NCBI GenBank assembly: GCA_021234155.1
Contig: JAJEKV010000022.1
Span: 7,967,961 to 8,031,960 of the forward strand
Direction of reading: 5' to 3'
DNA length: 64,000 nt
Origin: Isoetes taiwanensis
Taxonomy: Eukaryota; Streptophyta; Lycopodiopsida; Isoetales; Isoetaceae
Shown: positions 1-56,931 of the stretch, piece by piece
Layout: each line of letters begins with the position of its first letter
Numbering within the stretch: the stretch's first letter is position 1
Program-made: the position numbers and the translations under genes
Notes under the pieces: generated by a model
What the model was told of the DNA's origin: nothing
The model's input: only the letters and a program-made list of their open reading frames with translations
Databases searched by the model: none

Positions 1-2190
1 GGCAATGATCCATTCTTCGTAATTTAGTACAAGGCAGAAATTTCTTCGCTTTCACCCCACCCATAGATGGTTTACAAGGAACCTTGCCTCCCTTCTTAGG
101 ATCTTGCGAGGATTTTATAGTCACCACTATGAAGACCAAGATCCCGGCACGCTTCTCAACATCTTTCATACACTTTTCTCCTCGGGTGATTGTGGAGACT
201 TATTCCAAGCAAAAAGAATGCTCATGTACACCATCTTATCCACTATTCTTAGAAAGGCATGGAGAGTGCAAATATGTACTCTCTTCACAGAATTGCAAGC
301 ACGGGGATCAAAGTTTTGTCCTCCTTCTCACGCGTTGGTTCAAAGATCCCGGTCACATTCGAGAGTACTCATTCCCTTCCCTTATCATCTACCCTAGCAT
401 ACAAGCAAGAAGGACATGCGTGGGTAGTCTTACCAGAACCATGTTTCATGTTATACATGCACTTGATGGTCTTTAGATCAGCAGCCAGATGCCATTCAAC
501 CTCGTAATCTCCGTATCCAGGAACCTGAAGCTTCTCTCCGACTCCATGAGCAGCAATAATAGTAGGAATAGGTGTCTGTTGAAAGACCCACTGAAGAACA
601 CCATGATTTTCTTCCAAGATTTTGAAATATCCCTATCCACCAAATATGGTCCTCGATTGAACAGAGAACTTCCCTTCCTCATTATCGAGGTGACAACGCC
701 TGTTCATTAATGTCGAGAAAACCCTCTCATACTTTTCACCTTTGATCAGTTCCATCTCATCCAACTTTATAGCAATTTGGAGTTTCCCTCCACATTCTTC
801 CACTTTCATATCATAGAAGCGAACTAATAGAAGAAGCATTTTAGAGAGATCCATCCAACAATTATTCTTCTCATTAAGAACAAATAGATCATTTCCGGAG
901 CCACCCTCCTTCTTACTTTTCCCAAAGGATTAGTGATCCCAAGTGCACGGATGTGGTGATCCGGTACATCTCTCCCAAATGTTCGTGTACTTACGCATTC
1001 CTCTTTGTTCTCTTGCTTTGCTCGACATAAATCGAAGTCTTGGCGAAGATGGTCTTCGTAATACCCCTCGTTGCTTGATACCATCCCGCAAACATCTAAA
1101 GAGAGCAATGTAAGCTTGTCGACCGATACCCACATTGTCACATAATTCTTGCATGTTATCAACACTTTGACTCTTTCCCAATTCAAGAAGCACTGCTCGA
1201 AGAATAAAATTTTCTTAAATGGTTAGCTCGCAGGAAGCTTCAACATATCTATAACATCATCTTTAGTTACAAGCTTTTTCAACAAACTAGCCATATTACA
1301 AGGTTTTCTCTTCTTCTTTTCAGCCATAGTAGGATCCACCAGATTTTTAATAGCGTGGATCCTTCTTCGAGAGCCCCCACCACTAGGGGCAAGTATATTT
1401 AGGGCCTTCAGTTCTTTTTTCCTCTCCCTCATGCCCAGTGGTGTCATTTTCAGTCTTTTTAACTTCCTCTCCAGTTTGTCATTGTCCTCAGAGCATCTCT
1501 TCAATCCTTGTTTAAGTGACTCCACCTCCATAAGCAACCTTTGATTGGAAGCTTGCAGTTCTTCTGTATTCTTAGACCTGTTGGTTAAGAAATAGTTACA
1601 CTGTTGGAGGTAATTACAATGTGCTACCATATTGCAATGCACTCCACACAATTGATTGTACATTGTTCTCAAATGCACATCGGAATTACTTGAAATATTA
1701 TTGCAATAGCCAAGCAGACCTTGATTACCCTTACAGGCAAAATGAATAAGCCCCGATGGAGAATGAAATTCAGGATGTCTTCTGGTGATCGGATCGATGG
1801 GATACAGTTCCCCACGCGCCCAGAGATCAATATTCATTGCACCAGAAGCTCGAAGAGCATTCTCATCGACCTGTTCCTTCCGATTATATTGATTTTTATA
1901 GGGCAAGCAGTTCTTGGGCACCTCCACCCGAATTGGCCTTTCGGTCTCGATTCAAAAAAAGAATTACTCATTGTCATTGGCCAAAATTAATAGAACACGC
2001 TTACCTCGCCATAGATCGAATTCGTGAGTCGCTGATCGCTTCCAGAGCTCCACAGTCCGACGACCAAATTGATGCAATTCTTTGCCAAAATACGAAGGAA
2101 AACTAGAGAATTCCTTCAGATTTGGGCGAGGATTGACATCAAAACTAAATTCGAAATGCCCTCCAAAGCTTTGGCGCCCAATTGAGGCAT
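1..2190 (-). pseudogene. Transposase-like gene of the large element, copy A (partial, frameshifted)
   Basis: The probable start is the ATG at 2190 (MPQLGAK), followed by a short first exon, a small GT..AG intron near 1950-2020, and a long open stretch at 1223-1927. That stretch is 234 residues and includes a coiled-coil rich in Lys, Glu and Leu, then a basic segment (AEKKKRKPC). The reading then changes frame several times towards lower coordinates: GKSQSVDNMQELCDNVG near 1150, DLSKMLLLLVRFYDMKVEEC near 830, and WHLAADLKTIKC near 480 followed by HACPSCLYAR. An Asp in an ADLK context followed by a CxxC pair is reminiscent of DDE-type transposase cores, but I cannot place it in a named superfamily. 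The frameshifts make it non-functional here. The 3' end lies outside the window. Confidence 0.6.
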
Positions 2191-2444
2191 TCTTGAGGCG
2201 TCCCGCTCGAAGCTACTCCTTGTAGCTTCAGTTCGGTGGGAAGGTGGGGGGAGGAGGGATTTAGGCGTAATGAGTAAAACAACAAGTAATAATGACGTTT
2301 ACCAGGTTCGGTTTCTCCAGGGCTGAGGTTCGGTTGAGGTTCGTGGGGGCTTTTTGCCCATACCTGCAGGTTCGGGTACCAACTAAAATCCAAATTTGGG
2401 AATGGCTTACAAGGGCGTTAATAGACTCCACCAAACCTCTAATG
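1..2444 (-). mobile_element. Large unclassified DNA transposon, copy A (terminal 2.4 kb, runs off the left edge)
   Basis: This stretch is the reverse complement of the first 2.4 kb of the element at 25702-36315. Long alignable blocks run from the terminus through the promoter region and the transposase-like gene, with scattered substitutions and small indels. The terminus is sharply defined: both copies share sequence up to an outermost CATTAGAG and diverge at the next base. Here the next base begins a phosphoglycerate dehydrogenase exon, whereas in copy B it is a GATA microsatellite. The rest of copy A would lie left of the window. Copy A has the better-preserved coiled-coil exon, copy B the better-preserved Cys-rich exon. 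Confidence 0.85.
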
Positions 2445-3370
2445 TGTTGGATGTTTTTACAGAAGAACCCCTCCAAAGGAGTAAACTTGTGCAGCATGAG
2501 AATGTGATTCTCACACCTCATCTTGGAGCAAGCACTGTGGAAGCCCAGGTATGTCTTTAAGTACAGTATTTAATTTAACTTTACGACAATGTAATCTGTT
2601 AATTTTATCGATGTTTCGCCTGAGGTATCTAGCTTTTGACACTCCATTTTAGTCTGGAATACATCTAACTCTGGTTTATTGCTTGTAAAAACGTGTCTTA
2701 GGTGTTGACTGAGCTTGCCCCATTTGTCACGCTGGCTGAAAAGTTAGGCAAGTTAGCCGTGCAGGTAGTGTCTGGTGGAGCTGGGATAAAAGATGTTGAG
2801 GTAAGCTACTATTCTTGTCGTGACCCAGATGACTTGGATACACGTCTACTTCGAGCCATGATTGTGAAGGGTATTGTTGAGCCTGGTATTAACCTGGTAA
2901 ATGTTGACTATATTGCAAGGCAACGTGGAATGAAAATTACAGCGAAAAGAATACCATCAGACGACTGAACTGAAGACGACTGAACTGATGTTCCCGTAGA
3001 GGCCATAGAAGTTAAGATCAATCATGTTGAATCAAAGTTCTCAAGCGCAGTGTCTGACAGTGGTGATATACCTTTGGAAGGAAGGATCAGAGATGGTGTT
3101 CCACATCCATCAAAAGTTGGAGGATTCAGCATTGATGCTAGCTTGGAAGGGTCTGTCATTCTTTGTAGGCAAGAGGATCAGCCAGGTATGATAGACAAGG
3201 TTGGAAGCATTTTAGGCAATTCAAATGTGACTGTCAGTTTTATAAGTGTTGGAAGAATGTCTCCTCGCAAACAAGTTGTGATGGCAATTGGGGTGGATGA
3301 TGAAAAGGAGGTTCTGCAGGAAATTGGCTCCATTCTTACTATAGAAGAATTCGTGTTCCTGAGTTTATAA
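2445..3370 (+). pseudogene. PGDH: D-3-phosphoglycerate dehydrogenase, 3' fragment (pseudogene)
   Basis: The family catalyses the first step of the phosphorylated serine pathway in plastids (3-phosphoglycerate to 3-phosphohydroxypyruvate, NAD-dependent). Exon 2445-2548 reads [20 protein letters not shown] then LTPHLGAS, the end of the NAD-binding/catalytic domain including the active-site HLGA motif. A GT..AG intron (2549-2701) follows, then exon 2702-3370 with the intervening ASB-like domain and the C-terminal ACT domain (CRQEDQPGMIDKVGSILG, ending EEFVFLSL). About 30 residues expected between EAQ and VLTEL (the EGVAIEIAEAV segment) are missing, so an exon has been lost. Two in-frame TGA codons at 2966 and 2981 sit in a perfect 15-bp tandem duplication. 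Everything 5' is replaced by the terminus of a transposon. The gene is dead here. Confidence 0.9.
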
Positions 3371-3668
3371 AACGAACTTGGATACTTATCTGATGCATTA
3401 ACGGAGTTGTAGCAATCAAGGAGGTAGGGGTGAGCTTATAATTTTTCTCTTTTCTATAAGCTTGTTTTCCTGAATTTTCTTAAGAGTAGATAGTAGAATA
3501 ATCTCAGAAGTGGCTAAAGCAGTTTTGAAGTGAGGCTCATTTTCCTTGAATAACGCAGAACCCACATTGGGTCTTCAAATTGTTCACCTATTATGTCCCT
3601 GCTTTTGTTTCAAAAGAAGGGAGCCATTTACCTTTTAGAAGTTATTTGCTGCTTGGAAATAGAGAAGA
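3371..3668. other. Intergenic, 3' flank of the PGDH fragment
   Basis: AT-rich sequence after the PGDH stop codon. It is probably former 3' UTR. I see no gene or repeat in it. Confidence 0.5.
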
Positions 3669-6699: not shown

Positions 6700-6850
6700 A
6701 CGTCATTTTTTAACGTTATAATAACGTACATTTGTAATAATAACGTACATTTGTAACGTTCGTTAACATTTGTTAACCTTGTTCAAGCCATAGGCACCAT
6801 ACATGTTTAACATTTTTTATTAACAGTGTTAAACGTTACATTTTTTAATG
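6700..6850. repeat. AT-rich short repeats (AACGTACATTTGTAA)
   Basis: Reiterated AACGTTATAATAACGTACATTTGTAA units and variants of GTTAAC lie upstream of the COI1 fragment. This is low-complexity sequence with no coding potential. Confidence 0.6.
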
Positions 6851-7040
6851 TGGATCGTACTATAGGCAAAAAATCGAGCCCTAAATTGGCACGGTCCGAT
6901 TAATCTACCCAAGGGGTGTAGATGATGTCACGTTAAAAGCCTTTTTAGCTAAAAAAAAAGAGCAAAAAAAAAAAGGGTTTGGACGTATTAGGGTTCTGTT
7001 TTTTTTTTGTGGCTATGGCGGCCACGGCAGCCACGGTGCC

Positions 7041-7490
7041 AAGGGAAAACCTAGGCCCTATGATTTTGCTTTGCTTCCCAAAGATTGGGGTGGGTTTGCT
7101 CGGCCATGGATTCTGGAGATTACCAAGGCGGCTATACAATTTAAGGCTCATCCTGCCCTTCAATCCATTCATCTTCGCCGCCTCAAAGTTATTGATGAAT
7201 ACCTGATACCCATAGCCCGCACATTTTCTAGCTCATTGCAGGTATTTAGATTGGATAAGTGTACTGGATTTACGACCAAGGGTGTCCGTGCTGTAGCCCA
7301 TTGCTGTAGGTATGCTTTCGCCATTTCTTCTTTGTTATGCCATTGCTGTGACATACTATGCATAGTAATTTTGAGAGCTTTTTATGATGCAGAGGGTTAA
7401 AGGAGCTATACCTGGAAGAAAGTTTGATTGAAGACCTGGATGGAGAATGGTTTAATGAGCTCACCTTGCATAATTCGCAGCTGCAAACCC
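7041..7490 (+). pseudogene. COI1: COI1-type F-box/LRR jasmonate receptor, internal fragment
   Basis: Two exons match the LRR region of CORONATINE INSENSITIVE 1, the F-box receptor for jasmonate-type ligands within SCF ubiquitin ligases. The first (7041-7309) reads KGKPRPYDFALLPKDWGGF, then PWILEI, then LQVFRLDKCTGFTTKG and ends VAHCC. A GT..AG intron (7310-7392) follows, then GLKELYLEESLIEDLDGEW and NELTLHNSQ (from 7393). After about 7490 the homology stops and a coiled-coil-like Gln-rich stretch takes over, ending at a TAG. There is no F-box upstream and none of the remaining LRRs downstream, so this is about 115 of roughly 590 residues of the family. The splice sites and the frame are still clean, so the truncation may be fairly recent. 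Confidence 0.8.
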
Positions 7491-16066: not shown

Positions 16067-16545
16067 CTTTCTCGACTCGCGAGTCGAGAAAGAGCCTCAG
16101 ACCTGTGTTTTTCACTTTGAAGGACCTCAGAACTGCGTTTTTCACTCTGAGAGGCTCTTTCTCGACTCGCGAGTCGAGAAAGGGCCTCAGACCTGTGTTT
16201 TTCACTTTGAAGGACCTCAGAACTGCGTTTTTCACTCTGAGAGGCTCTTTCTCGACTCACGAGTCGAGAAAGGGCCTCAAACCTGTGTTTTTTCACTCAA
16301 AGGACCTCGAACTGCGTTTTTCACTCAGAGGCTCTTTCTCGACTCGCGAAGTCGAAAGGGCCTCAAACCTCTGTTTTTAAACTTTGAGTCGCCTTTCTTG
16401 ACTCGCGAGTCGAAAAGGCCTTCCCTAAAACCGTTTTTTCGCTTTGGTTTGCCGCTTTTTTCTCGACTCGCGAGTCGAAAGGCCTTCTAACCTCGTGTTT
16501 TTCCTTCGAAGTCGCCTTTCTCGACTTCGCGAAGTCGAAAAGGCT
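16067..16545. repeat. Array of perfect palindromes (CTCGACTCGCGAGTCGAG)
   Basis: Seven copies of an 18-26 bp palindrome centred near 16079, 16169, 16259, 16346, 16405, 16470 and 16529. The first three units are 90 bp apart and nearly identical, including the spacer CCTCAGACCTGTG. The later ones are 59-87 bp apart and decayed. Two late copies carry compensating changes (GACTTCGCGAAGTC) that keep the dyad symmetry. No protein is encoded. It lies in the isoamylase intron. Confidence 0.85.
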
Positions 16546-20616: not shown

Positions 20617-25701
<5,085 letters not shown>

Positions 25702-25950
25702 CATTAGAGGTTTGGTGGAGTCTATTAACGCCCTTGTAAGCCATTCCCAAATTTGGATTTTAGTTGGTACCCGAACCTGTAGGTATGGGCAAAAAGCCCC
25801 CACGAACCTCAACCGAACCTCAGCCCTGGAGAAACCGAACCTGGTAAACGTCATTATTACTTGTTGTTTTACTCATTACGCCTAAATCCCTCCTCCCCCA
25901 CCTTCCCACCGAACCGAAGCTACAAGGAGTAGCTTCGAGCGACGCCAAGA

Positions 25951-28578
25951 ATGCCTCAATTGGGCCAAAGCTTTGGAGGGCATTTCGAATTTAGTTTTGA
26001 TGTCAATCCTCGCCCAAACCGGGCGAATTCTCTAGTTTTCCTTCGTATTTTGGCGAAGAATTGCATCAATTTGGTCACGGACCGTGGAGCTCCTGAAAAG
26101 CGATCACGCCGACTCAATTCGATCTATGGCGAGGTAATCGTTCTATTAATTTCGCCAATGACAATGAGTAATTCTTTTTGAATACGAGACCTAAAGGCCA
26201 ATTCCGGTGGAGGTGCCCAAGAACCGCTTGCCCTACAAAAATCAATATAATCGGAAGGAACAGGTCGATGAGAATGCTCTTCGAAGCTTCGATGCAATGA
26301 ATATTGATCTCTCGGGCGTGGGGGGAATCAGATCCCATCGATCCGATCACCGTAAGACATCCCGAATTTCATTCTCCATCGGGGCTTATTCATTTTGCCC
26401 GTAAGGGTAATCAAGGTCCGCTTGGCTATTGCAATAATATTTCAAGTAATTCCGATGTGCATTTGAGAACAATGTACAATTAATTGTGTGGAGTGCATTG
26501 CAATATGGTAGCACATTGTAATTACCTCCAACAAATGTAACTATTTCTTAACCAATAGGTCTAAGAATACGTAAAGAACCGCAAGCTTCCAATCAAAGGT
26601 TGCTTATGGAGGTGGAGTCACTTAAACAAGGATTGAAGCGATGCTCGAGGACAATGACAAACCGGAGAGGAAGTTAAAAAGACCAAAATGACACCACCGG
26701 GCATGAGGGAGAGGAAAAAAAAGAACTGAAGGCCCTAAATATACTTGCCCCTAGTGGTGGGGGTTTCAAGAAGGATCCACGCTATTAAAAATCTGGTGGA
26801 TCCTACTATGGCTGAAAAGAAGAAGAGAAAACCTTGTAATATGGCTAGTTTGTTGAAAAAGCTTGTAACTAAAGATGATGTTATAGATATGTTGAAGCTT
26901 CCTCGAGCTAACCATTTAAGAAAAGTCATTCTTTGAGCAAAGCTTCTTGAATTGGGAAAGAGTCAAAGTGCTGATAACATGCAAGAATTATGTGACAATG
27001 TGGGTATCGACGACAAGCTTACATTGCTCTTTTAGATGTTTGCAGGATGGTATCAAGCAACGTGGTATTACGAAGACCATACCGCCAAGACTCCGCTTAT
27101 GTCGAGCAAGCGTAACAAAGAGGAATGCGTAAGTACACCAACATTTGGGAGAGATGTACCGATCACCACATCCGCACTTGGGATTACTAATCACCGGGAA
27201 AAGTAAGAAGAAGGGTGGCTCCGAAATGATCTATTTGTTCTTAATGAGAAGAATAATTGTTGGATGGATCTCTAAAAAATGCTTCTTCCATTAGTTCGCT
27301 TCTATGATATGAAAGTGGAAGAATGTGGAGGGAAACTCCAAATTGCTATAAAGTTGGATGAGATGGAACTGATCAAAGGTGAAAAGTATGAGAGGGTTTC
27401 TCCGACATTAATGAACAGTATTGTCAAATTCTCGATAATGAGGAAGGGAAGTTCTCTGTTCAATCGAGGACCATATTTGGTGGATAGGGATATTTCAAGT
27501 ACCGAAGAAAATCATGGTGTTCTTCGGGGTCTTTCAATGACACCTATTCCTACTATTATTGCTGCTCATGGAGCTCGGAGAGAAGCTTCGTGTTCCCGGA
27601 TACCTGAGATTACGAGGTTGAATGGCATCTGGCTGCTGATCTAAAGACCATCAAGTGCATGTGTAACATGAAACATGGTTCTGGTAAGACTACCCACGCA
27701 TGTCCTTACTGTTTGTATGCTAGGGTAGATGATAAGGAGAAGGGAATGAGTACTCAAGAATGTGACCAGGATGCTTGCAATTCCTGTACTTTGATCCCCG
27801 TACTTGCAATTCCTGTGAAGAGAGTACATATTTGCACTCTCCATGCCTTTCTAAGAATAGTGGATAAGATGGTGTACATGAGCATTCTTTTTGCTTGGAA
27901 TAAGTCTCCACAATCAGCCAGAGAAAAGTGTATGAAAGATGTTGAGAACGTGCTTTCTGATCTTGGTCTTCATGGTGGTGACTATAAAATCCTGCAAGAT
28001 CCTAAGAAGGGAGGCAAGGTTCCTTGTAAACCATCTATGGGTGGGGTGAAAGCGAAGAGATTTCTGCCTTGTACTAAATTACGTAAGAATGGATCATTGC
28101 CAACCGGAAAGTGGGAGGGGTATAAGGACTTGCCGGAAGCGTAAGATGACCGTATTTCACGGGGAGGGCAAAACTAAAGAAAATTAAAGTGTGGCGTAAT
28201 CCGAAAGCAATCGGGTAACTTTGATGGCGAGAAGAAAATGGTGGGTGGAAAGTTAGATGAATTCGAGTAGCAAAGAATCAATTCACGGGTCGCTTATACA
28301 AGCATGGGGAGAATGCAATGTCACACATTACATTCATATACTTCACGCCCATGGCTTGTGGTTTGCCAAAGAGTACGGGAGCTTGGGAATATGGAATACG
28401 CAGGGAATGGAGAAGTCACATAAGCAAGCCAAGAATGCTTTTTTCAGGTTCACACAACATCGAGGTTCGTGGTGGTAACTCATTGCAACAGATGTGCCAA
28501 TGGTTCTATAGAAGGATTATCCGCAAGCTAGAGAAAAAGATAAAGCTAAACAAGACACGACGCTGGCTAGAATATTGA
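25951..28578 (+). pseudogene. Transposase-like gene of the large element, copy B (frameshifted)
   Basis: The start MPQLGQSFGGHFEFSFDVNP matches copy A. The coding sequence continues through a short intron near 26130-26200, EVPKNRLPYKNQYNRKEQ, a degraded coiled-coil, the basic segment AEKKKRKPCNMASLLKKLV (26800s), VRFYDMKVEECGGKLQIAIK (27300s), then HACPYCLYARVDDKEK and RVHICTLHAFLRIVDKMVY (27680-27860). The last part reads THYIHILHAHGLWFAKEYGS followed by GMEKSHKQAKNAFF (28320-28450). An ADLK-type Asp, a CxxC, a conserved CTLHA and a late GxEKSH are the sort of layout seen in RNase H-like transposases; whether they are catalytic is inference. Several stops and frameshifts mean this copy cannot make the protein, so a full-length source copy must exist elsewhere if the family is active. 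Confidence 0.6.
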
Positions 28579-28781
28579 GGAGAAAAGTTGAGCAGAAAAA
28601 AAAGAAATGATATGGTGTAGCTCTAGTGCGCAGATAAGTTAAAGGCGTAAGCGATCCACAAGGATCAGACAGGGTAGAAGATATACTTCTGGGGAATCAA
28701 TTGTATGAATAAATTCATATTAATGTATAACTATTGACCATGATGTGCAACTATAATGTTTCAAATATGTTAGGTTGGCAG

Positions 28782-28966
28782 CGTGGGCACGGTGCGAACT
28801 TAGTTGGTATTCAATTGCTGAATGACAAGTATTCGCACCGTGGCCACGGTGCGAATGAAGTTGGGAATTAGTTATAGATTACCTGCTATTCGCACCGTGG
28901 CCACGGTGCGAAAGCATTTGGTTTCCGTGGCTATCTTTTGTCGTTTTCGCACGGTAGCATCGGTAC
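28782..28966. repeat. Palindrome cluster 1 (4 units)
   Basis: Units are centred at about 28787, 28844, 28900 and 28957, spaced 57, 56 and 57 bp. The second is a perfect 26-bp palindrome (ATTCGCACCGTGG plus its reverse complement). The first and fourth are decayed. The spacers between palindromes are about 32 bp and not obviously alike. It lies between the transposase-like gene and the next gene. Confidence 0.9.
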
Positions 28967-29083
28967 TCTTTATATAATTATGCTTGTTATCGATGATGTC
29001 TGCTTTTGATATTTGTTCTAAGTCATTACATTGCATATTTATCAATCTTGTCCACTCATTTGTTGCATTACAGTTCAGAGACA

Positions 29084-29982
29084 ATGGCACAGAATAGCGG
29101 TAATGCCGGATCTAACAATCCCAACAACCAAAGAACAGAAGAGAAGGCGCCGTCTGGGCGCACACATCATGGTGAAGACAGCGAGGGCAACTCCTAACTC
29201 ATTCTCTGTACTGGCTAATGAGATAGATTACATAACCGGACTTCCTCGTAGAGTGCCGGAAGTTGGATTGGTGGAGATAAACCAGGGGCCAGACTTGCTT
29301 GAAGCCGACAATGAGAATGCTAAGCCCCATGAGGATGACCATCAGGATGTGCATGTCCAGGATGTTCCGTTGATGTCCTCGATGTGCCCGCCCGTAACGC
29401 CCTATTGCCGCTCGTGCAGCTTTTGAACCCCTCAATATTATGTACTTTCGTCCCTTTCCGTGTCCCCTCGTGATAGCTCAATTAGAAGAAAATATCGTTC
29501 TACAAGAGGCAACTCGCAGCATTCTGCGGACGGTTGTGCCTGAAAGCATTGTACCAGATGCAGTAGTGCTTCCTGTTGATGAGCAGCCTGCAGTCGCATC
29601 ATCCAGTAGACGTAAGAGGAAAACTAAGCCTAAGCAGCTGCAGAAGAAACAGGTTCTCTGCAAAGGCCCTCCTAAGCTGAATAAGAAGGGCCAGCCGTTT
29701 AATCAAAAGTTAAGATGGATCTGGCGAAATCCCAAGACTTCCGTAACCACGTGGAGTGGGTGCTTCCGAAGCTCACAATGGCTAGAATATGTAAGGAGGT
29801 GGTTATACATTAAGATGAAGAGGGATGGTGCAAGGTACCGGAGACATGGTTACAATTTTCCAATGCCAGAACAGGTGACTCGATTCACTGCAGATGCCCT
29901 TGATGCTCGCGACGAGGTCACCGAGAATCACATGGTCGTTCTTCAAGACTGTGAAATGTCTTTGTGCATTCCAAGAGAGTGA
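29084..29982 (+). CDS. Unknown acidic-then-basic protein of the large element (interrupted frame)
   Basis: The likely start is the ATG at 29084 (MAQNSGNAGSNNPNN). The frame shifts to ARATPNSFSVLANEIDYITG and an acidic stretch ending HEDDHQDVHVQDVP, and then shifts again. From 29440 an open stretch runs to 29982 with a Lys/Arg-rich segment (SSRRKRKTKPKQLQKKQ) and a compact C-terminal part (RWIWRNPKTSVTTWSGC, WLEYVRRWLYIKMKRDG, MVVLQDCEMSLCIPRE). Either two small introns or two frameshifts separate these parts; I could not settle it. The basic segment could be a nuclear localisation signal or DNA-binding. No known domain is recognised. Palindrome cluster 2 follows its stop codon by about 140 bp. 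Confidence 0.45.
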
Positions 29983-30124
29983 CAATAATGAGGCAGGATA
30001 TTGCCTTGACAAATTACTTCCGAGGCATGTAAAGTGTTTTATATTAATGAAACGATCTTTGTTGTATATTTTGTTTGCTTGCTAGGTATTTTGATTGTAT
30101 CTATTCTCTATGTATACTTATAAT

Positions 30125-30246
30125 GCACCGTTGCCACGGTGCGAAATGGGTATAAATTACTTTGTGAGGGAGGTATTTTCGCACCGTGGCCACGGTGCGA
30201 AATTCCCGTAAGTTACGCGTGTGAGGGCAATTTCAAGACCGTGGGC
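30125..30246. repeat. Palindrome cluster 2 (3 units)
   Basis: Units are centred at about 30133, 30189 and 30244, spaced 56 and 55 bp. The middle one is the full palindrome (half-site TTCGCACCGTGG), the first has one mismatch, and the third keeps only one half. Here the spacers resemble each other (GTATAAATTACTTTGTGAGGG versus GTAAGTTACGCGTGTGAGGG after the palindrome), so the repeat unit is the whole ~56 bp. It sits between the convergent ends of a plus and a minus gene. Confidence 0.9.
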
Positions 30247-30394
30247 CTTTGTATAAATTGAATCATTCCACAGAAAGTGAACCACAAGATCAAAGTGAGC
30301 ATATTAACATGTTTGAGGATATATTAACATATTAGAGAACATTTAGAGAACGGCAAGTCACGGAATTATGTCCAAGTAACCTTCCCCTAGGTTT

Positions 30395-30985
30395 CTAACC
30401 CCTTCCCCTTCCCCTGCGAGGTCTAACCCATGCATCTGGGTTAGGAGTCAAGAGCTCACGCTCCTCCCAGCCTGATTCTTTCCACCATATGGGGTACCTA
30501 GTCATTAGAAAAAGTAATTCCACAGGATGATACTCACAGAAGAAGAGCGGACCTAACTCCACAAAACCGTTGTACTCGTGGTAGTACACCCTAATAAGGC
30601 CATACATCTGTCCCCGGGTAATTTCATGAATGAATTCTGTTATGTATGCATCCAGAGAGTGTGCTAAATAGCCAGCACGAAGAAGAGGCCTCAATTGTTG
30701 TAGCATCTCGTCCAGATAAAGAGGGGGTTCAAGAAGTCCCCTCATTGCAAGTCTCCTATAACATTCAGATGGATTAATTTCCATCAGTGGCTCATGACCA
30801 CAATCAAATCGCTCCAGAATGAAGTTGATCAACTCCATTGTAAGCTCCTTGGTAGGACTGTGGTGCAACCTCCACTCCAAGAAATGGTCCCATAGCTCAT
30901 CCATTCCAGGCCGCACAAAATGCCTGGGGCATGCTTGCAGGCCTTGTGGAGTGGCCCAGGGAGGATTCGGTCCAATCATTTGCAA
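30395..30985 (-). CDS. Intact 196-residue ORF of the large element, unknown function, RG-rich tail
   Basis: A single uninterrupted exon starts at ATG 30985 (MQMIGPNPPWATPQGLQACP). The predicted protein is largely helical by composition, with segments such as MDELWDHFLEWRLHHSP, TMELINFILERFDCGHEP and YITEFIHEITRGQMYGLIRV. It ends in a PDAWVRPRRGRGRG tail, typical of nucleic-acid-binding RGG-like ends. No catalytic motif or known family is recognised. It is the longest undamaged frame of the element, which contrasts with the ruined transposase-like gene. Its upstream side is a pyrimidine-rich leader (purine-rich on +). Cluster 2 lies just beyond its stop codon. Confidence 0.6.
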   Translation of the reverse strand: MQMIGPNPPWATPQGLQACPRHFVRPGMDELWDHFLEWRLHHSPTKELTMELINFILERFDCGHEPLMEINPSECYRRLAMRGLLEPPLYLDEMLQQLRPLLRAGYLAHSLDAYITEFIHEITRGQMYGLIRVYYHEYNGFVELGPLFFCEYHPVELLFLMTRYPIWWKESGWEERELLTPNPDAWVRPRRGRGRG

Positions 30986-31290
30986 AGAGCACGAAGATCA
31001 AGTAGCAAAGAACAAGGAGCACGAAGATCAAGTAGCAAGGAGCAAGAAGATCAAAAGAGAAGGAAGATCATGGAGCAAGAAAGCAAGGAACAAGATCAAG
31101 TAGCAAGATCAAGAGCAAGGAACACGGAGCAGACAAGAAATTAGTGGATCAGACAAGAAATTAGTGGAGCAGACAGGAAATTAGTGGAGCAGACAGAGAG
31201 GCAAGGAGCAGACAAGAGGCGGACAAGAGGGGGAAAGAGGCAAAGAAGCAGACAAGAAGCAGACAAGAGGCAAGGAGCAAACAAGAAGCA
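30986..31290. repeat. Purine-rich short tandem repeats
   Basis: Units of GATCAAGTAGCAARGARCAA are followed by three near-identical GGAKCAGACARGAAATTAGT units and then AGCAGACAAGAGGC variants. They occupy the intergenic space between the divergent minus ORF and the two small plus ORFs. Confidence 0.8.
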
Positions 31291-31464
31291 AAGCCAATGA
31301 TAGACAGTGAAGGCATAGATGCCTATTTAAAGAGAAATCAGGTATATATGACATTATACGAGTACCATACAAGTATGTATATAATCCAATAATTTCTATG
31401 TATATACGATCAATATTGGTGGGTATAAATATACATCAAATTGCCGAGTGCAGCAACATTGGCC

Positions 31465-31713
31465 ATGTGGCCTCCTCCTGGTCCTGAACGTGATTCCATC
31501 ACCTGCAAGATGAATCACGAAAACTTCAAGCAGTGTCGCGAGCGACAAATACCAATGGAAGACTGGATGACCACTGCCGCTCTCAATCCTCGCTATTATC
31601 CTGATCCCTTCGATGTTATCATCCATCTAATATGGAATAGAGAACATCAAATGTACATGATAGAAAAGATCACTGGGGTGCCTGGTGACAATGACTCAGA
31701 AGAGTCCCCCTAA
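31465..31713 (+). CDS. Small unknown protein SITC-1 (82 aa), tandem paralogue
   Basis: ATG 31465 gives MWPPPGPERDSITCKMNHEN and an 82-residue protein ending GDNDSEESP. It aligns end to end with the product of the next ORF: SITCxM, then a Cys six to eight residues after it, RQIPMEDW versus RGIPLDSW, a VIIHL/VFIHL strand, and MYMIEKIT versus AYEINRIT before an acidic tail. The shared Cys pair and WxxxA spacing suggest one small folded domain duplicated in tandem. I know no family with this pattern. Both lie on + between palindrome clusters 2 and 3. Confidence 0.55.
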   Translation: MWPPPGPERDSITCKMNHENFKQCRERQIPMEDWMTTAALNPRYYPDPFDVIIHLIWNREHQMYMIEKITGVPGDNDSEESP

Positions 31714-31807
31714 ATCAATACTTGTCATCTGGATCATATTGTCAATACTTATTTGAAGAGTTCATGATCGTGTATTTTGTACATTATGCTCGTATATATA
31801 ACCAATA

Positions 31808-32134
31808 ATGCTGCTACAGTGCACGTCAATAATTTTGTTCGATATAAGTACAGCTCCATTCATTCAATGGAGAAGGCATCCATTTGCTATGTCTCGGCCT
31901 GATTATTCTTGTTATTCCATTACTTGCACTATGACATATAATGATCTTTATAGATGTTCTCAGAGGGGTATCCCCCTTGATTCCTGGCTGGAAGGGGTAG
32001 CAGAGGGTCGAAATCATTCTTCCAACGGGGTTTATCGTGTTTTTATCCACCTTCATCGGGTTCCGGGCGTCCACGCCTATGAGATTAATCGCATCACTCA
32101 ACTTGCTGCTCGTGATGATCCCGATTGCGAATGA
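31808..32134 (+). CDS. Small unknown protein SITC-2 (79-108 aa), tandem paralogue
   Basis: The frame opens at ATG 31808, but homology with the neighbour begins only after the in-frame ATG at 31889 (MSRPDYSCYSITCTMTYND), which is therefore the likelier start. Matched positions include SITCTM, RCSQRGIPLDSWLEG, VFIHLHR and YEINRITQLAARDD. The spacing to the upstream paralogue is under 180 bp from the preferred start. The protein has no signal peptide or membrane segment. Palindrome cluster 3 begins about 200 bp after its stop. Confidence 0.55.
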   Translation: MLLQCTSIILFDISTAPFIQWRRHPFAMSRPDYSCYSITCTMTYNDLYRCSQRGIPLDSWLEGVAEGRNHSSNGVYRVFIHLHRVPGVHAYEINRITQLAARDDPDCE

Positions 32135-32335
32135 TCTTCTGCATTTATGTATGCTATGCCTTTTGTATGAGTTCTAAATTACACTAGAATATTTCGGACA
32201 TTCTCTAGTTATAGGTATGTATCCATAAGAGATAAGAACATATGATTCATCTATTTACCGCACATTTTCAATTTCGAAAGCTCTTGGCCATTTTCCTTAC
32301 ATGTAGATTCTAAATTCAGATAAGCATTCTCTTCG

Positions 32336-32455
32336 CAGTGTGTGTAGTCACGGTGCGAAATAATATGGAATATTTTCGCACCGTGGCCACGGTGCGAATA
32401 TTTGTTAGTTGTAAGCACGGACAACACGATCTTCGCACCGTGGCCACGGTGCAAG
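32336..32455. repeat. Palindrome cluster 3 (3 units)
   Basis: Units are centred at about 32347, 32386 and 32443, spaced 39 and 57 bp. The first keeps only the right half (CACGGTGCGAA), the second is the full palindrome, and the third lacks the last bases of the right arm. It sits between the SITC pair (+) and the 3' end of the following minus gene. Confidence 0.88.
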
Positions 32456-32811
32456 TAAAATAGAAGCGTAAAACAAATTAAAATGAAACCGAAGTTTATG
32501 TTCGATATACCCGGGGGTTTCACCTACTATAAAGGTGATACGCCACGTGCGTTAATGGGGTCAGCAAAAAACCCTCCGTATACGCCTTGTCCAACCTTCT
32601 AAACGCCCCTTCCCGTATACATATTACACTGGATTCTCCTCCAGAAAACCCCCTAGCCAGCCCCTATCCGTATTTTTACATACGGTTTAGGGTAAAAAAA
32701 AACCCACCCCTTTCACTCACATGGTATATACGCCTTAAACTATGTGACATCCCCGGGTCGATATAACAAGAATAGAGATTTCAAACAAGTCTTTGCATTA
32801 ATTGACAATGG

Positions 32812-34045
32812 TTACAACTTCATTTTCTTAGAAACATGTAAGTCATCGGACACTTCGACTTCTTCCAATTCGGATTCCTGCAGACCAGCATCCAACAGGT
32901 ACATAAGGCGAGGAATCTGGGGCTCCCTCTCTTCCCAAGTCGGGCCGAATTGTAGCCTTATCCACGCCGGACAAGGCCAATGCAGCTCACCGCAGCCATA
33001 GAATACATACTAAAGCCACCAAAAATATGCGTGGCGATATCTCTCCTAACGCCCACTACTCGATCGAATTGGCGATAATGGGATATGATTACCAATCAAC
33101 GAGAGGGCCTTGAGTTTCAAGACCTCTTCTCGTCCATATGGGCTGTACTTAGAATGGAACACAACGATCTCTCCCTTATAAAGGTAGCCCATATAGTGGG
33201 CAATACTTGCATCTCTCGCCAAGGGTAACTCTGTCATGTCCGGGCGAAAAATCGCCCACAAAAATCTCCTCCAACAAATAATCGTTCTTAGGCACTTAAC
33301 AAAATAAGCAAACTTATGGTAGCTTACCTCCACTTCATCGATGCAATAACCTCTTTGGTAGAAATGTTGATGGATCGACCTTGAAGAGCTTGATTCGCTC
33401 TTTGATACTTGTTTTGCACTATCCTTTTAGCTTCGATGTACTCGCCTCGAACTTTACTTCGAGACTTCCTTCAAGCCCATTTCGCCATCTCCGTAACTCT
33501 ATCAAAAGCATTCTCGTGAGCTATTGAAGTTCCATCATAAGTTAAGAGATCGTGGCAGTCCCTAGGCACTTCCGCTCAAGTCAATGAAGTCGCCTAGACC
33601 AACAACGAAAGCATAGATTTGTCCAAGGACTTCATCTTCCCTCAAACCAAGAATGGAAGATATATCGTGGAGAAGAAGATAGTCCTTCCCTCCTATGTTA
33701 ATCGGCAAGGCTTCCGTGACACCCCATCTATCAAGATTCTCTTCATGCTCGCTTCACGCCTTCATCCTCGCCCTCGCCGAGCTTTTCCACCAGTTCCTTC
33801 TCTTTCTCTGCATCAAATACCTCCTCTACAGGTGACTGAGGTTCTGCAATAGCCTTCACCTGTGGTTCTTCCCTATCTGTTGGTGGAACCGTATATATCA
33901 TGTAAGTAGCAAACATGATGTCAACTGGATATAAATTATCCTTCCCATCCTTCTCACATAAGTCGGCTGGCAGTCTCTTGAACGACCTTCGAACCTTATC
34001 TTGGTCACCTTTGGGAAAAAGCTTCAGAAAGGACTTTAGACTCAA
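32812..34045 (-). CDS. Multi-exon unknown gene of the large element (decayed or spliced)
   Basis: On the minus strand ATG 34045 gives MSLKSFLKLFPKGDQDKVRR, continuing about 100 residues to an acidic Glu/Lys stretch. The reading resumes in another frame as NLDRWGVTEALPINIGGKDY and HDISSILGLREDEV (near 33700), then DCHDLLTYDGTSIAHENAF (33550). A GT-containing donor (GAG|GTAAGC) lies near 33330. Next come LPLARDASIAHYMGYLYKG and YSPYGREEVLKLKAL (33100s). The last exon reads GCGELHWPCPAWIRLQFGP and ends KKMKL at a TAA (32812-32814). Small introns plus one or two frameshifts explain this best. No known domain is recognised; the IGGKDYLLLHDIS stretch resembles a small DNA-binding or antirepressor-like fold only loosely. 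Confidence 0.4.
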
Positions 34046-34445
34046 TACAATCTTCCCAAATGAGGGAGAAGGACGCTGCCTTCACTTTCGCCACGGCCAT
34101 GAAACCATGAATGTAATCGACCATACACGCCAATCGTGTTTGTTAGCCTCGAGATTATATCTACCGTTAGGCGTAAGTTATTGTAGACTACGATTAAAGG
34201 CTCTACGGGTTTTCGGTCGTTGAGCCGAACTCATCTGGGTGTGACAGCCGATACTCTGCTTCCTTCCTGACGATCTGGTCATACCATGCCTGGAACTGTT
34301 CCCAAGCTTTCTCTGACCTGCCGTTTGACATTGCGGAATTGTAGCGCCTTCTTTAGTGCAATAAAAAACCTGATCGCCTAAAAGTAAGTGCCTGCGAGCT
34401 GACGGCGCGAAACTAAAATGTCTTAAGTGTCCTCACGAGAAATAT

Positions 34446-34651
34446 GTCGCACCGTGGCCACGGTGCGAAACAAATATAAACCACAAAGACAACAATAAGG
34501 TATTCGCACCGTGGCCACGGTGCGACATTTTGCCGAAAAGAAGGCCAAATTTTTGTTAACTGCAAAACATACTACACCGTGGCCACGGTGCGAAACTACA
34601 CAACACGACTACACGAACTCCACATATTTCGCACGGTGGCCACGGTGCTAT
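34446..34651. repeat. Palindrome cluster 4 (4 units)
   Basis: Units are centred at about 34457, 34514, 34582 and 34639, spaced 57, 68 and 57 bp. All four keep the core CACCGTGGCCACGGTGC or a one-base variant. The cluster lies between two minus-strand genes, so clusters occur downstream of both plus and minus genes. Confidence 0.9.
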
Positions 34652-34726
34652 CTTTGCAAAAGGATATAAGTTATTGGCAAACAACACTGGGATTTGAACC
34701 CAGTAACACCATTGTGATTTATTTGT

Positions 34727-35957
34727 TTAACTGTTTTCACTTAAAGAAAGTACAACAGAAGGCATACAGAGCTTTGTTGTATACAATTCTTCCCTACGTT
34801 TTCCTACCTTGACACCATCTACCAAAAAATGGAAGACGTTTAAGTCACATTCTGATTCCAAAATAATTCTTACATCAAATAAAGACCATGCTTCTTCGAC
34901 TTTTAAAGTTTTAAACAATTGACCACTTTTGAAGATAGCAATGTCAATGACCGCAGAATGGGTACCATCAGCATCGTCTTGTTCCACTGGAACCCACGTC
35001 CATCTGCTCCCTTCTTTTACTTCCCTCCATCTTCTGTATTTGAAGGTAATGTAAACGCTTTGCTTTCGAATACAATACCGATTCAACGCTTTCTTTCTTT
35101 ATCCCGCAGACCGTACCTTCTCAACTCCTTCATGCATCGGATGACCATTCATCACATAAAATGTCATCCGTAAACAACCGACAATCACTTACAAAGAAAC
35201 ATTTTTGAAGTCTTCTTGACATTCTCGACATTCTTAAACAAGGTAATAAACATATCGATGGGTACATTTACTTTCACGCGGTCCACAGACTCCACCTTTC
35301 TCCTTCAAAGCAATCAAAATTTCCCCGTGACAATTTCAAATTGGCAAGAAACAGAGAACTGGAATCCATTGGGCAGAACTAAGCTGTGATAATGGGGGCA
35401 ATGGTAAGTCCACAATTTTGCCTTTCCGAGGATAATACTCATATTTTAAGAACCAAATCCCCTTTCCCCAGGTAGTTTGCACTTCGCTTGACCTTCAAAA
35501 AGCAAGGATCCAATATCATAATAGAAAGCACTAAGATGCTTGTGATAGAACTCGATGGTTCCAGATCCAAAGACATCGAAATACAGAGCCCCGAGATACC
35601 GTAAAACCCAATTAGTTGATTTCTTCAAAATATAATGAATGACGGATTAGCACAGATATAATGAAACTCACAATTCGCACGAAGCTCAGGGAAATTACGT
35701 CGAGATCTTATCTTTTCTTTTCTCATGTTTGTCGGTGTGTATAGGTGTCTGACCTTGATATATACTTCCCCTCTCACCTCGAACCCGACAACAATAGCCT
35801 TCCAATGGCTTGAAATAACATTTCTCCTGCCTTTGATCACCCGATGAGGACCTCCGAGTGGCGGCCTGATTGTCACGAAGCTCCCAAGAAATATATTAAG
35901 CAGCCAAATCATTCTCACCGCGGATGCAGGTAATCGCCATCTGAAATGAACCGGCAA
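34727..35957 (-). CDS. Decayed or multi-exon unknown gene(s) of the large element
   Basis: Three open pieces follow one another on the minus strand. 35957-35625 reads MIWLLNIFLGSFVTIRPPLG then HWKAIVVGFEVRGEVYIKVR and HLYTPTN, vaguely like a BAH-type module. 35628-35340 reads YLGALYFDVFGSGTIEFYHK and WFLKYEYYPRKGKIVDLPLP. 35086-34727 reads WREVKEGSRWTWVPVEQDDA then LFKTLKVEEAWSLFDVRIIL and FHFLVDGVKVGKRREE, which has the rhythm of a ubiquitin-like fold. Whether this is one spliced gene or two cannot be settled by eye. The upstream segment 35958-36315 contains no further frame of note and would hold the promoter next to the right terminus. The assignments are impressions, not matches. Confidence 0.35.
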
Positions 35958-36315
35958 ATTAATTAGATCAAACAGTCTGAATCAGATGAGCTCGCGGAAC
36001 TAGAAGGATTGAAAGCATTAGCAAACCTGGATGGAGAGACGTGAAAAGAAGAGCCGTTGAGGAAGGGGAGGTACTTATAGACACCCCAACATTTGGGCAG
36101 AATTGTATGGGAATAATTTGTAATTATTACTTCCCCCCAATCGAACCTCCGGGCAGGTAGGTAAGGATAATGCCGAACCTCAGATCTTGACGACACACCG
36201 CATGGGAAGGGAGGCATGGATGAAGAAAAGCCCAGACCCCGAATTCTCATTGGCCGCGATTTCCATCTTTGGCATCGAGCTTGGGACAATAAGTGAACCC
36301 AAAAAAACTCTAATG

Positions 36316-36399
<84 letters not shown>
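36316..36399. repeat. (GATA)21 microsatellite, right flank of the large element
   Basis: 84 bp of GATA units start directly after the terminal CTCTAATG and end at GAAATGAACAC. It has the same strand and phase as the left array. Long Ser-Ile-Tyr-Leu frames through both arrays are translation artefacts. Confidence 0.95.
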
Positions 36400-36401
<2 letters not shown>

Positions 36402-51340: not shown

Positions 51341-52890
51341 ATGGAGCTTGAGAAGAGATGCCACATTCTAGCAATCCCATTTCCTGCTCAAGGGCATATT
51401 AATCCCATGATGCAGCTTTGTAAGTGGCTAGCAAAACGTGGCTTCATTATCACGTTAGCCAATATAGATAGCATCTATGAAAATATGCAGGAGCACTGGT
51501 CTCCTCAACCAGGTGTAGATATTCGTCTGGCATCAATTCCCTTCGAATGGAGACCAATTTCGACGGGCTTCGACGCATATGCCATGGCCAATTTGGAGGC
51601 ATTTTTTGGCCATACCTTAGATCCATCATTCCAGAACAACTTAGAGGATTTGATAAAGAACATGGGCTCTTCTATATCTTTAATTTTGTCAGATTATTTG
51701 CTTCCAGTGACACAAGAAATAGCAGATAAATTTGGGATTGATAGGGTTATCTTCAAGACAGGAAGTGCGGCATGGGCGTGTGTGGAGTATCATCTTCCAG
51801 CAATGCAAGAGGACGGCAATCTGCCACCTCAGAGTAAGAACATGCTACTTTTAGCTATTCTTATGTTTATTGTAGTGGACTATTTCATGACTTCACAGAT
51901 ATGTAGTATGTAATATATGTATGTATGTATGTATCTATCTAAGGATATGATTATGTCAAAAAAAAAAAAAAAATTACACCTATATATTAATTAAGACTAC
52001 TTTGTTTTGCAGGGGATGTAAAGCTAGAAGGATTACAGCCATTAAGAGTAGCAGATCTGCCATGGTATCTTCACGTACCGGAGCAAGGCTGGATTGAAAT
52101 GTGCACTGAGAGGCCATCTTCATTCACAAAAGCCACATGGGTTCTGGTGAATTCAGTGTATGATCTGGAAGCTGATGTGTTTGACTTCATGCAAGGGGCA
52201 GAGGGGAAAAATTTCCTTCCGATCGGGCCGCTACTGTTCTGCGACAAGCAAGAGGAGGGAAAATACGGGATGAGTCTGAGGCCAGAGGATGAAGGATGTC
52301 TGGAATGGCTGGATACACAGGAGCCAGAGTCTGTGATATACATATCATTTGGAAGTATAGCAACTTTAAGCCTGGAGCAGTTCCAGGAGCTGGCTGCTGG
52401 CTTGGAAGCAAGCACAGTTCCATTTTTGTGGGTGATCAGACCCCAGCTCATATCTGGTGCCTCTGAAGAGATCTATAAGAGTTTCTGCCTCCGGACCGCG
52501 GACCGCGGCCGGGTCATTCCCTGGGCTCCCCAGACCAAAGTCCTTGCTCATTCTACTGTGGGAGGATTTTTGAGCCACTGTGGCTGGAATTCTATCATTG
52601 AAAGTGTATGTGAAGGAGTTCCCTTGCTGCTTGCCTGGCCTTGGGCTGCTGAACAGAATCTCAACTGTAAAATTGTATGCGAAGACTGGGGCATTGGTGC
52701 CAGATTTTTGGATTCTCCAGACGAAATTGTTCTGAGGGAGAAAGTTGAACGCCTTGTGAAGTACTTGATGGGCCAAGATGGACTTGAAATGCGAGCCCGA
52801 GTCAAAAAGCTCCAGCAGATCTGCTCAATCGCACAGGCCTCCCGTACTAACCTTGATTCCTTTGTATCTGCATATTCTAATGTAGTTTAA
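51341..52890 (+). CDS. Family-1 UDP-glycosyltransferase, two exons, apparently intact
   Basis: The exons are 51341-51833 and 52013-52890, joined across a phase-1 GT..AG intron (51834-52012), giving 456 residues, the usual UGT length. The ATG at 51341 is the first in frame. Features: the catalytic His19 in IPFPAQGHINPM, the partner Asp118 in LILSDYLLP, VIYISFGS before the donor site, and the PSPG box at residues 335-379 with WAPQTKVLAHSTVGGFLSHC, GWNS and a final AEQ. The final Gln of the box is usual in UDP-glucose users. The box is 45 residues, one longer than the standard 44, because of an extra Leu in GVPLLLAWP. The likely role is cytosolic glycosylation of a small lipophilic metabolite; the acceptor cannot be read from sequence. 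A short TATG microsatellite and a poly(A) run lie in the intron. Confidence 0.93.
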
Positions 52891-55290: not shown

Positions 55291-56931
55291 TCATGATATG
55301 CCGACAGATGGACGAGATCTCTCATCTCCAAACCAGTTATTCTTTTCTTTAGGACCAGTAGGACCCTCCTCCCGTGATAACTCATTTGGAAACTTGTTAA
55401 GTAAATCCTCTAATGATTCTCTAACCTTTTTTGGAAGGAACTTTACAACTTTGTTAATCTCAGTTCTTGAGTTATATTGAATTTTGGGTCCCCATTCTCT
55501 CATATACTGTAACCATGGTGGTTCAGGCGGTGCTTCCTCAACCCCTAACTTATGGAGATACTCAGCAGATATAATTTCATATTTGGAACTTGTTTCCATA
55601 AAGAAGTCACTTCGAGAAGTGTCATTTCTGATTCCAACCCCACGTTTTGCATCACCCTGAAGGTTATCCCCTTCATGTGGATAGCTTGCATGCCCATGCT
55701 TAGAAGAGTATACTATGGGCTTATTATTAACATACTCGATCTCAGAAGGCCTTAGCCAAATTCCACCACTATGTTGAGAGTAATAAACTCCCAAAAGCTC
55801 TGCATTGAAGTTATTAAACCTTAGCGTGAAGTGTTCCCAATCCCCAACATGTTGTCCAATTTTACCAAGATGTACGTTGACTATGCCCAGCTTTGCTGTT
55901 CCAGGACCATTGAAAGGGCAGAATATCCAGAATGCCAGGTCTGTGATGGTTGCCCCATACATTGGTTTCACATGCAAGTATGTCTTGGCGACTGATAATT
56001 TTCCACGCTTGATCGTGTCGGCGGAGTCAACATTTGGCAGGTCAATCCAGTATTGTCCATCATTAGTACCTCCTTGAGGCAAATTTGAACCATCAGCATC
56101 AATCTTTACAGGATCTGCTGAGGCGTTGGAATATAACAGAGCACCAGCTTCAAAGAACCAATCAACAGAAGATGGAAAGTATGCCTCATCTGGATGAAAG
56201 TAAAGGGTAGGTCCATATTGATTCGCAAGAGCATGGATTTGATCCAAACTAGGCATTGCTTCATACCTGAAGTTGGTATTTGCCAACACGGCAATAGGTA
56301 TATTAGTCCCTGTGCTCAATCTATTACTGACGAAGAACATGCCTGTGCTTATTCCACTACATTCAGTGCCAATATTAAGGGGTTTGAGGATCCAAGGATA
56401 GAAGGGCAGTTTGTTGTTGTCTGTGGACCAGATGGGTTGGTCAAGAGCAGCCTGAGCAGTAAGATCATTTCTTGCACAGACTACCTGGTCAAGGCCAGGC
56501 TTATCTTGAGTTTGTGTAACAAGGTATCCCAAGGGGCTATAACCTTGGGGGGCAACAGGCAGCCAGAAAAAACCAAGGCCGCTTTGTTTCCCATCCCAAC
56601 TTTGGCTGCTCCAAACTAACTTAAAATCCACTGGATTTGCTACTGCTGAAGACCCTGAATTTTGCCTTACAACAACAGCATTTCCTGGCTTGGTTACAGA
56701 GTTTGGCTGTGAATAGTATCCTATACAATGAAATCCTTCCGGGATGTTTACAGGCTTGTAAAAGCCTGCTCCCTGTCCATCCGAACCTCCTTCAAGACTT
56801 TTCCACACCACTTGCAACGTACTAACCTGTTGAAGATCAAGCTCGCCGATGTTTATGGTTCCGGTGCCAAATGCAAATGCAGTACCTAATTTTGCATGTA
56901 TCAGTAGAGAAGAAGCAATTGACATATCCAT
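55291..56931 (-). CDS. Vps62/DUF946 family protein, intact single exon
   Basis: An uninterrupted 546-residue frame from ATG 56931 to TGA 55291. It matches plant proteins of the Vps62-related family (PF06101/DUF946) along its length. The N-terminal half has beta-rich repeats typical of the family (YKPVNIPEGFHCIGYYSQPN, then FFWLPVAPQGYSPLGYLVTQ and PWSTDN-like IWSTDN). The C-terminal half has the conserved HVGDWEHFTLRF (about residue 361), YYSQHSGGIW (about 383) and SSKHGHASYPHEGDN (about 409) with its invariant His residues. Yeast Vps62 was found in vacuolar sorting screens; the biochemical role of the plant proteins is unclear. There is no obvious signal peptide or membrane segment beyond a mildly hydrophobic start. 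A transposon lies about 240 bp upstream of the start codon and may affect its promoter. Confidence 0.93.
   Translation of the reverse strand: MDMSIASSLLIHAKLGTAFAFGTGTINIGELDLQQVSTLQVVWKSLEGGSDGQGAGFYKPVNIPEGFHCIGYYSQPNSVTKPGNAVVVRQNSGSSAVANPVDFKLVWSSQSWDGKQSGLGFFWLPVAPQGYSPLGYLVTQTQDKPGLDQVVCARNDLTAQAALDQPIWSTDNNKLPFYPWILKPLNIGTECSGISTGMFFVSNRLSTGTNIPIAVLANTNFRYEAMPSLDQIHALANQYGPTLYFHPDEAYFPSSVDWFFEAGALLYSNASADPVKIDADGSNLPQGGTNDGQYWIDLPNVDSADTIKRGKLSVAKTYLHVKPMYGATITDLAFWIFCPFNGPGTAKLGIVNVHLGKIGQHVGDWEHFTLRFNNFNAELLGVYYSQHSGGIWLRPSEIEYVNNKPIVYSSKHGHASYPHEGDNLQGDAKRGVGIRNDTSRSDFFMETSSKYEIISAEYLHKLGVEEAPPEPPWLQYMREWGPKIQYNSRTEINKVVKFLPKKVRESLEDLLNKFPNELSREEGPTGPKEKNNWFGDERSRPSVGIS

Follow-up and report, generated by a model that had tools for sequence, protein, structure and literature searches.

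The stretch of DNA analyzed in this work, 64,000 nucleotides of the genome of Isoetes taiwanensis (assembly GCA_021234155.1, contig JAJEKV010000022.1; hereafter the window), contains a 10.6 kb transposon. The existence of this element, the complete copy of which in the window is referred to here as copy A, is confirmed, and its insertion makes no target-site duplication, nothing being duplicated and nothing lost at the sites tested. The explanation that we consider very probable is that of a land-plant DNA transposon whose RAG1-like transposase cuts at the CATTAGAG ends and joins them to the target without stagger, with no target bases duplicated or lost.

The left end of copy A, CATTAGAG at 25702, abuts an (AGAT)29 array (25585-25701), and the right end, CTCTAATG at 36308-36315, abuts a (GATA)21 array (36316-36401). 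The terminal repeat is exact over 8 bp, and positions 9-32 agree at 14/24, a value reached by 0.06% of shuffles. A second, partial copy (copy B, the reverse complement of 1-2444) is 92.4% identical to copy A over 2466 columns, and since it starts at the identical base but with a different flank, the GATA repeats lie outside the element. The search of the source genome (assembly of 1.658 Gb, 1110 contigs) with the left 499 bp gave 203 candidate places, 40 of which were scored and all matched (91-100%, copies A and B included); with the right 500 bp, 190 candidate places were found, and 40/40 of those scored matched (87-100%, copy A included). Matching the left-end and right-end lists on contig and strand allowed the pairing of 21 copies besides copy A, 20 of which have exact CATTAGAG...CTCTAATG ends; the other one (C907, 28.95 Mb) ends in CTCTAACG and was left out of the junction counts. 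The two ends lie at most 16 kb apart in 16/20 copies and more than 16 kb apart in four, copy B among them at 61 kb; the latter are assumed to contain nested inserts.

Nine further copies were read whole. All of them span from CATTAGAG to CTCTAATG over 10.8-15.6 kb, right half included, with collinear blocks 86-95% identical to copy A (n=9); five are 11.9-12.1 kb long, one (c9) is without ~1 kb of gene 1, and another (c8) has large insertions. Copy A is not the full form of the element. Indeed, an additional ~360-380 bp at element position 3487 is present in 9/9 full copies and absent from copy A, an additional 0.9-1.2 kb occurs near element position 5423, between genes 3 and 4, in seven of the nine, and the 250 bp of copy A at element positions 6808-7057 is absent from all of them. 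It might be argued that what lies at 28.6-36.3 kb, the right part, belongs to another mobile element or is host DNA acquired by chance and that the true transposon measures ~3 kb, given that gene 1 alone has a transposase signature in copy A and that copy B shows just 2.4 kb in the window. However, the right part is collinear up to the right end in all nine full copies, and these also contain parts of genes 2-7, which makes this idea exceedingly unlikely; it is refuted for the nine full copies, and a shorter parental form could exist among the unread ones. These data bear out much of what had been claimed in a preliminary description of the window, that is, a transposon at 25702-36315 with these ends, the left terminus being common to the copy at 1-2444, inserted in a split GATA microsatellite; in the source genome, the element is present in multiple copies (at least 40 places per end, the ends usually lying 10-16 kb apart). 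Neither the absent duplication nor the palindrome arrays (see below) figure in that description. As for the two observations of which that description had warned, copies ending elsewhere and a right half never accompanying the left one, a single paired copy of the 21 ends differently, and both halves occur together in 9/9 full copies, so that the element withstood both checks.

The absence of a target-site duplication emerges from the comparison of flanks and of rejoined target sites. No match of three or more bases across the insert was found in 20 copies (permutation means 0.28 for three and 0.16 for four bases), and two-base matches occur in 3/20 of them vs 1.5 by permutation. Copy c7 is inserted in a copia reverse-transcriptase gene, and its joined flanks match paralogues without the insert: all eight empty sites fetched (the best eight places besides the flanks of c7 itself, about 30 weaker places being left out) align ungapped through the junction, the few gaps lying at least 40 columns off, and the frame of the joined flanks is open across the junction (RVT_2 at E 9.5e-31). 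Copy B lies just inside a PGDH exon, four bases past the AG acceptor, and its flanks rejoin in frame as GCTG^TGTTGGATG..., so that no base was duplicated or lost there. Finally, the two GATA arrays of copy A, when joined with zero bases removed, make up a single stretch of 203 bp with a pure period of 4. A 4-bp GATA duplication, which had first been inferred from this microsatellite, was rejected, since a period of 4 fits 0, 4 and 8 and other copies are without any duplication. A weak bias of the type ~TGNAAT is observed in the left flanks (T at -6 in 12/20, p 0.007; G at -5 in 11/20, p 3e-4; A at -3 in 12/20, p 0.005), together with a T at +8 (12/20, p 0.007), all these p values being uncorrected for the 16 positions tested.

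A question concerns the mechanism that might have led to such junctions. We infer a cut-and-paste chemistry in which the RAG1-like transposase would pair both element ends, would cut the element out at CATTAGAG, and would join both strands to directly opposite target phosphates; with strand transfers placed in this way, there would be no gap to fill and, hence, no duplication. Excised or circular element DNA end-joined into chromosome breaks, with no strand transfer, would also yield no target-site duplication. End joining is usually accompanied by small deletions or by added bases, whereas both termini are base-exact in 20/21 copies and, at the empty sites examined, the target has neither missing nor additional bases; we therefore regard this as very unlikely.

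The transposase is the product of gene 1. The homologues P0001-P0023 all match (23/23) within 26316-28605 (tblastn), and the only named transposase relative belongs to the fern Adiantum nelumboides (P0024, E 5.6e-13). The predicted model of homologue P0002 has an RNase H fold, the fold matches being led by RAG1; a RAG1/Transib type of fold with an RNase H core is predicted for the transposase, with two Asp and one Glu as the predicted catalytic residues and with a putative zinc site, formed by CxxC and HxxxxH, inserted before the Glu. The CxxC motif is present in 23/23 homologues (P0001-P0023), and HxxxxH..E in 6/24 homologues as well as in the piece from the window; no match was seen in the remaining 18, most of which end short of that region. 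No family member reached a Pfam transposase cut-off (25 members scanned), and the Pfam CACTA model was absent for the same 25 members at E <=1 (among the best 25 of 30 families). The pattern stretches retrieved from viral contigs (11) and prokaryote genomes (six) included no confirmed relative; plasmid records held no match to a 1.6 kb piece of gene 1, and the BFVD search gave no relative at E <=0.001. The preliminary description had proposed a check for an RNase H fold, which was indeed predicted, and had assigned the element to no recognised class. This last point did not stand: given its predicted RAG1/Transib fold, the class of the transposase is recognisable by structure, though no Pfam cut-off was reached and the duplication typical of the class is absent. 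The rest of that interpretation, namely the transposon, its ends, the GATA site, the multiple copies, and several genes that could not be named (see below), was maintained.

As described by Kojima 2025 (PMC12730594), the CMCT clade is characterized by CA..TG ends, by the motifs C(2)C and H(3-4)H, and by duplications of 2-5 bp. The element resembles this clade in the RAG1/Transib-type core (P0002 model), in the presence of both motifs from the second D to the last E, and in the CA..TG termini of 20/21 paired copies and of copy A, but it differs from it in the absence of a 2-5 bp duplication. The same is true for ESTA, Plavaka, Lanisha, and Chapaev (CMCT), which are alike in motifs and CA..TG ends and differ in the 2-5 bp duplication reported for the clade. 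Invariable CAC..GTG ends and a 3-4 bp duplication are reported for Chapaev in PMC4079192, and the element has neither. From RAG1, ProtoRAG (BbRAGL), and Transib, one of which (TransibSU, PMC4411706) makes a 5-bp CCAGG duplication, the element differs in being plant-borne and without duplication, in a very weak sequence match, and in that no RAG2-like partner was recognised among its cargo. Spy (PHIS) elements (PMC4482050) move by cut-and-paste with no target-site duplication and insert within AAATTT; the element likewise makes no duplication, but its 20 target sites are not AAATTT and its predicted fold list is led by RAG1. Since fold, motifs, and ends are present but the duplication is absent, we call the element RAG1-like, in or beside CMCT, with no named lineage. 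In the open-access literature, no report of a RAG1-like plant transposon, or of a CMC-type one without target-site duplication, was found among the matches listed.

CACTA/EnSpm elements are large and contain extra genes. The element is likewise a large plant DNA transposon with extra genes and shares with them the C(2)C/H(3-4)H motifs, so that a divergent CACTA/EnSpm (or Chapaev, Transib) element, the short target-site duplication of which has decayed, has to be considered. This idea is in agreement with the RAG1-type fold common to these families, with the position of CxxC and HxxxxH between the second D and the E, and with the CA..TG ends, which are those of the CMCT clade (PMC12730594). We regard it, however, as improbable: none of the 20 copies keeps a match of at least three bases where CACTA/EnSpm would leave a 3-bp duplication, nothing is duplicated in the PGDH exon or in any of the eight empty sites retrieved, the ends are CATTAGAG and not CACTA or CAC, and the Pfam CACTA model is absent among the families listed for the 25 members.

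Some observations weigh against a RAG1-like transposase acting without stagger. The fold model was made from a homologue (37% identical in the searched region) and not from the window protein, and residues 775-782 of P0002, around the catalytic Glu (779), have a predicted local distance difference test score (pLDDT) <50, so that the assignment of this Glu rests on motif and spacing. Aligned directly with RAG1, the sequence gives a weak match (hhalign probability 1.8%, P 0.028), the profile search gave only two PDB chains, both unrelated (E 0.12 and 0.33), and Pfam RAG1 was found in 1/25 scanned members, at E 0.24. Concerning the junctions, the GATA phase of copy A by itself fits 0, 4, or 8 bp, paralogous empty sites were examined for one copy only (c7), and the pairing of the 4/20 copies with ends >16 kb apart is less sure. 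Lastly, the functions suggested below for the cargo genes and for the palindromes are a proposal only.

Table 1. Position of the element, of its genes and of its repeats in the window, with data on other copies.
Feature	Position	Strand	Remarks
Whole transposon, copy A	25702..36315	+	10,614 bp; exact ends recur in 20/21 paired copies; 9/9 full copies collinear barring indels
Left half of split (AGAT)n microsatellite (target site)	25585..25701	+	Pure period 4 with right array, zero bases removed
Right half of split (GATA)n microsatellite	36316..36401	+	Pure period 4 with left array
Left terminal inverted repeat	25702..25755	+	Exact 8 bp CATTAGAG, then imperfect to ~54 bp
Right terminal inverted repeat	36262..36315	-	Ends CTCTAATG
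Copy B, left part	1..2444	-	Gene 1 reading less disrupted; sits in PGDH exon
Gene 1, predicted RAG1-fold DDE transposase	26195..28605	+	Frame broken in assembly; 5' start not fixed
Gene 1, D1 of KLDE	~27357	+	Sequence motif
Gene 1, D2 of ADLK	~27638	+	Sequence motif
Gene 1, CxxC	~27701	+	Sequence motif
Gene 1, VHICTLHA	~27826	+	Sequence motif
Gene 1, HxxxxH	28335-28352	+	Sequence motif
Gene 1, Glu of GMEKSH	~28410	+	Sequence motif
Gene 2	29084..29982	+	~300 amino acids over three frames; last 180 codons found in part in 9/9 full copies
Gene 3	30395..30979	-	Open frame of 194 amino acids; partly present in 9/9 full copies, nowhere as one open full-length frame
Gene 4	31465..31713	+	Open frame of 82 amino acids; in 9/9 full copies, all 82 residues open in 3
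Gene 5	31889..32134	+	Open frame of 81 amino acids; in 9/9 full copies, all 81 residues open in 2
Gene 6	32812..34331	-	~410 amino acids in the present reading, which includes frame breaks and a presumed intron; 112-codon middle in 9/9 full copies
Gene 7	34727..35940	-	Roughly 400 amino acids, several frame breaks; last 123 codons partly in 9/9 full copies
Second gene-3-like frame, other copies			c3 L014/L013; c7 L022/L021; c8 L024/L023; c9 L025/L026
Palindrome array 1	28775..28969	.	4 sites, 57-bp spacing, between genes 1 and 2
Palindrome array 2	30122..30201	.	2 sites, 56 bp, between genes 2 and 3
Palindrome array 3	32375..32455	.	2 sites, 57 bp, between genes 5 and 6
Palindrome array 4	34446..34651	.	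4 sites, spacings 57, 68, 57, between genes 6 and 7

Both strands contain cargo genes (genes 2-7), and parts of all six are present in 9/9 full copies, often frame-broken. Genes 4 and 5, both short, stand in tandem and are paralogous to each other (29% over 68, E 4e-10). In four copies, the extra block harbors a further frame, absent from copy A, that resembles gene 3 (37-39% identity). As to the length of gene 3, an ATG frame of at least 191 amino acids arises in 2/200 Markov nulls; its product, folded alone without the first three residues, has a pLDDT of 39.9. In agreement with the genes that the preliminary description had been unable to name, cargo pieces gave only weak and scattered matches in Pfam and PHROG, gene 2 having no Pfam family and one weak PHROG match (E 0.11). 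No homologue of the gene 6 reading or of gene 3 was found at E <=1 among 5.8 billion proteins, in a search limited by word sharing to 5252 and 90 candidates, respectively; for genes 2, 4, 5, and 7, the comparison covered Pfam and PHROGs, with the entire gene or a piece of it.

Four gene spacers of the element contain a 24-bp palindrome, TTCGCACCGTGGCCACGGTGCGAA, which in the window occurs at 12 sites with at most 8 mismatches, all inside the element; palindrome-like sites elsewhere in the window are one with 8 and one with 9 mismatches. Genome-wide, there are 158 exact copies vs 0 of the reversed control, and 20 of 50 listed palindrome places are within 16 kb of one of 80 listed element ends (chance 0.15% per site), both lists being incomplete. 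Viral contigs contain no exact match to a 20-base core of the palindrome. Neighboring sites are 56-57 bp apart in 7/8 close pairs of copy A and in 29/35 across nine copies, which are related and not independent; the spacers between sites are near-unrelated in copy A (10.1 of 33 bases identical, shuffled 8.9, 3.6% of shuffles equalling that value). The conservation of the site at a constant spacing suggests a bound protein, and the palindromes might thus be sites that recruit a putative protein encoded by genes 2-7; such a palindrome-reading protein would perhaps keep the element from being silenced. This possibility recalls, as an analogy only, the anti-silencing VANDALs of Arabidopsis, which are MuDR-type elements (PMC12730594) and whose VANC protein binds short motifs that abound in the noncoding DNA of these elements (PMC5735166): in both cases, a multi-gene plant transposon has short motifs concentrated in noncoding stretches, but the VANDAL motif is 9 bp long and non-palindromic, and no VANC-like gene was recognised in the element.

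Rather than regulator sites, the palindromes might be hairpin-forming, replication, or transcript-end signals, a possibility that we take seriously but consider doubtful: it is favored by the location of perfect 24-bp palindromes between genes, some of them convergent, whereas the 158 exact genome copies, which point to a conserved sequence and not to pairing alone, and the regular spacing with largely unrelated spacers in copy A speak against it. A more comprehensive proposal, to which we attach about equal chances of being right and wrong, is that of a separate land-plant lineage of the RAG1 fold with blunt integration and a regulon of its own, consisting of several orphan genes (some in divergent paralogue pairs) and of palindrome arrays with 57-bp spacing that would recruit a protein of the element itself, one possible purpose being resistance to DNA methylation. 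The spacer separating the divergent genes 3 and 4 (31000-31290) is filled by tandem repeats of degenerate sequence, of the types GGAGCAGACAAGAAATTAGT and GCAGACAAGAG; it has no palindrome in copy A, and the extra block found there in c4, c5, c7, and c8 has one or two. Outside the element, a 90-bp tandem array of 3.6 copies (16067-16387) has a unit that includes the palindrome-like CTTTCTCGACTCGCGAGTCGAGAAAG.

Most of what is known of Transib and RAG elements comes from animals, and it is to these elements that vertebrates owe V(D)J recombination. If blunt integration by a RAG1-like transposase is correct, the spacing of strand transfer, which is often taken as a family mark, can fall to zero within the RAG1 fold, and the element would represent a second kind of DDE transposon without target-site duplication, besides Spy. 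Moreover, a large element with many genes would offer a direct test bed for a repeat-reading regulator, if one exists.

The differences between copies A and B (25702-28200 vs 1-2444) show a peculiar pattern: 10 of the 30 isolated ones have CTG in B where A has CCG, and two have CAG in A where B has CGG, multi-base clusters of differences lying elsewhere. At one of the CTG/CCG sites, relatives have Leu or Ile (TPLG, TPIG). We suspect base-calling errors at methylated CHG sites of what is presumably a nanopore assembly, rather than mutation; the frame breaks of the cargo may therefore be in part artefacts. Given this pattern and the Leu/Ile of the relatives, we did not adopt the view of gene 1 as just a dead gene.

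Rfam and tRNA scans of the window gave no match. Intron-split PGDH exons adjoin copy B (NCBIfam TIGR01327, E 2.4e-21); downstream of it (2444-3000), a doubled AGACGACTGAACTGA and in-frame stops were observed, so that the PGDH gene may be a decayed copy. A UDP-glycosyltransferase piece is located at 52099-52890 (E 1.1e-18), and a Vps62 gene at 55291-56931 (Pfam E 5.4e-214).

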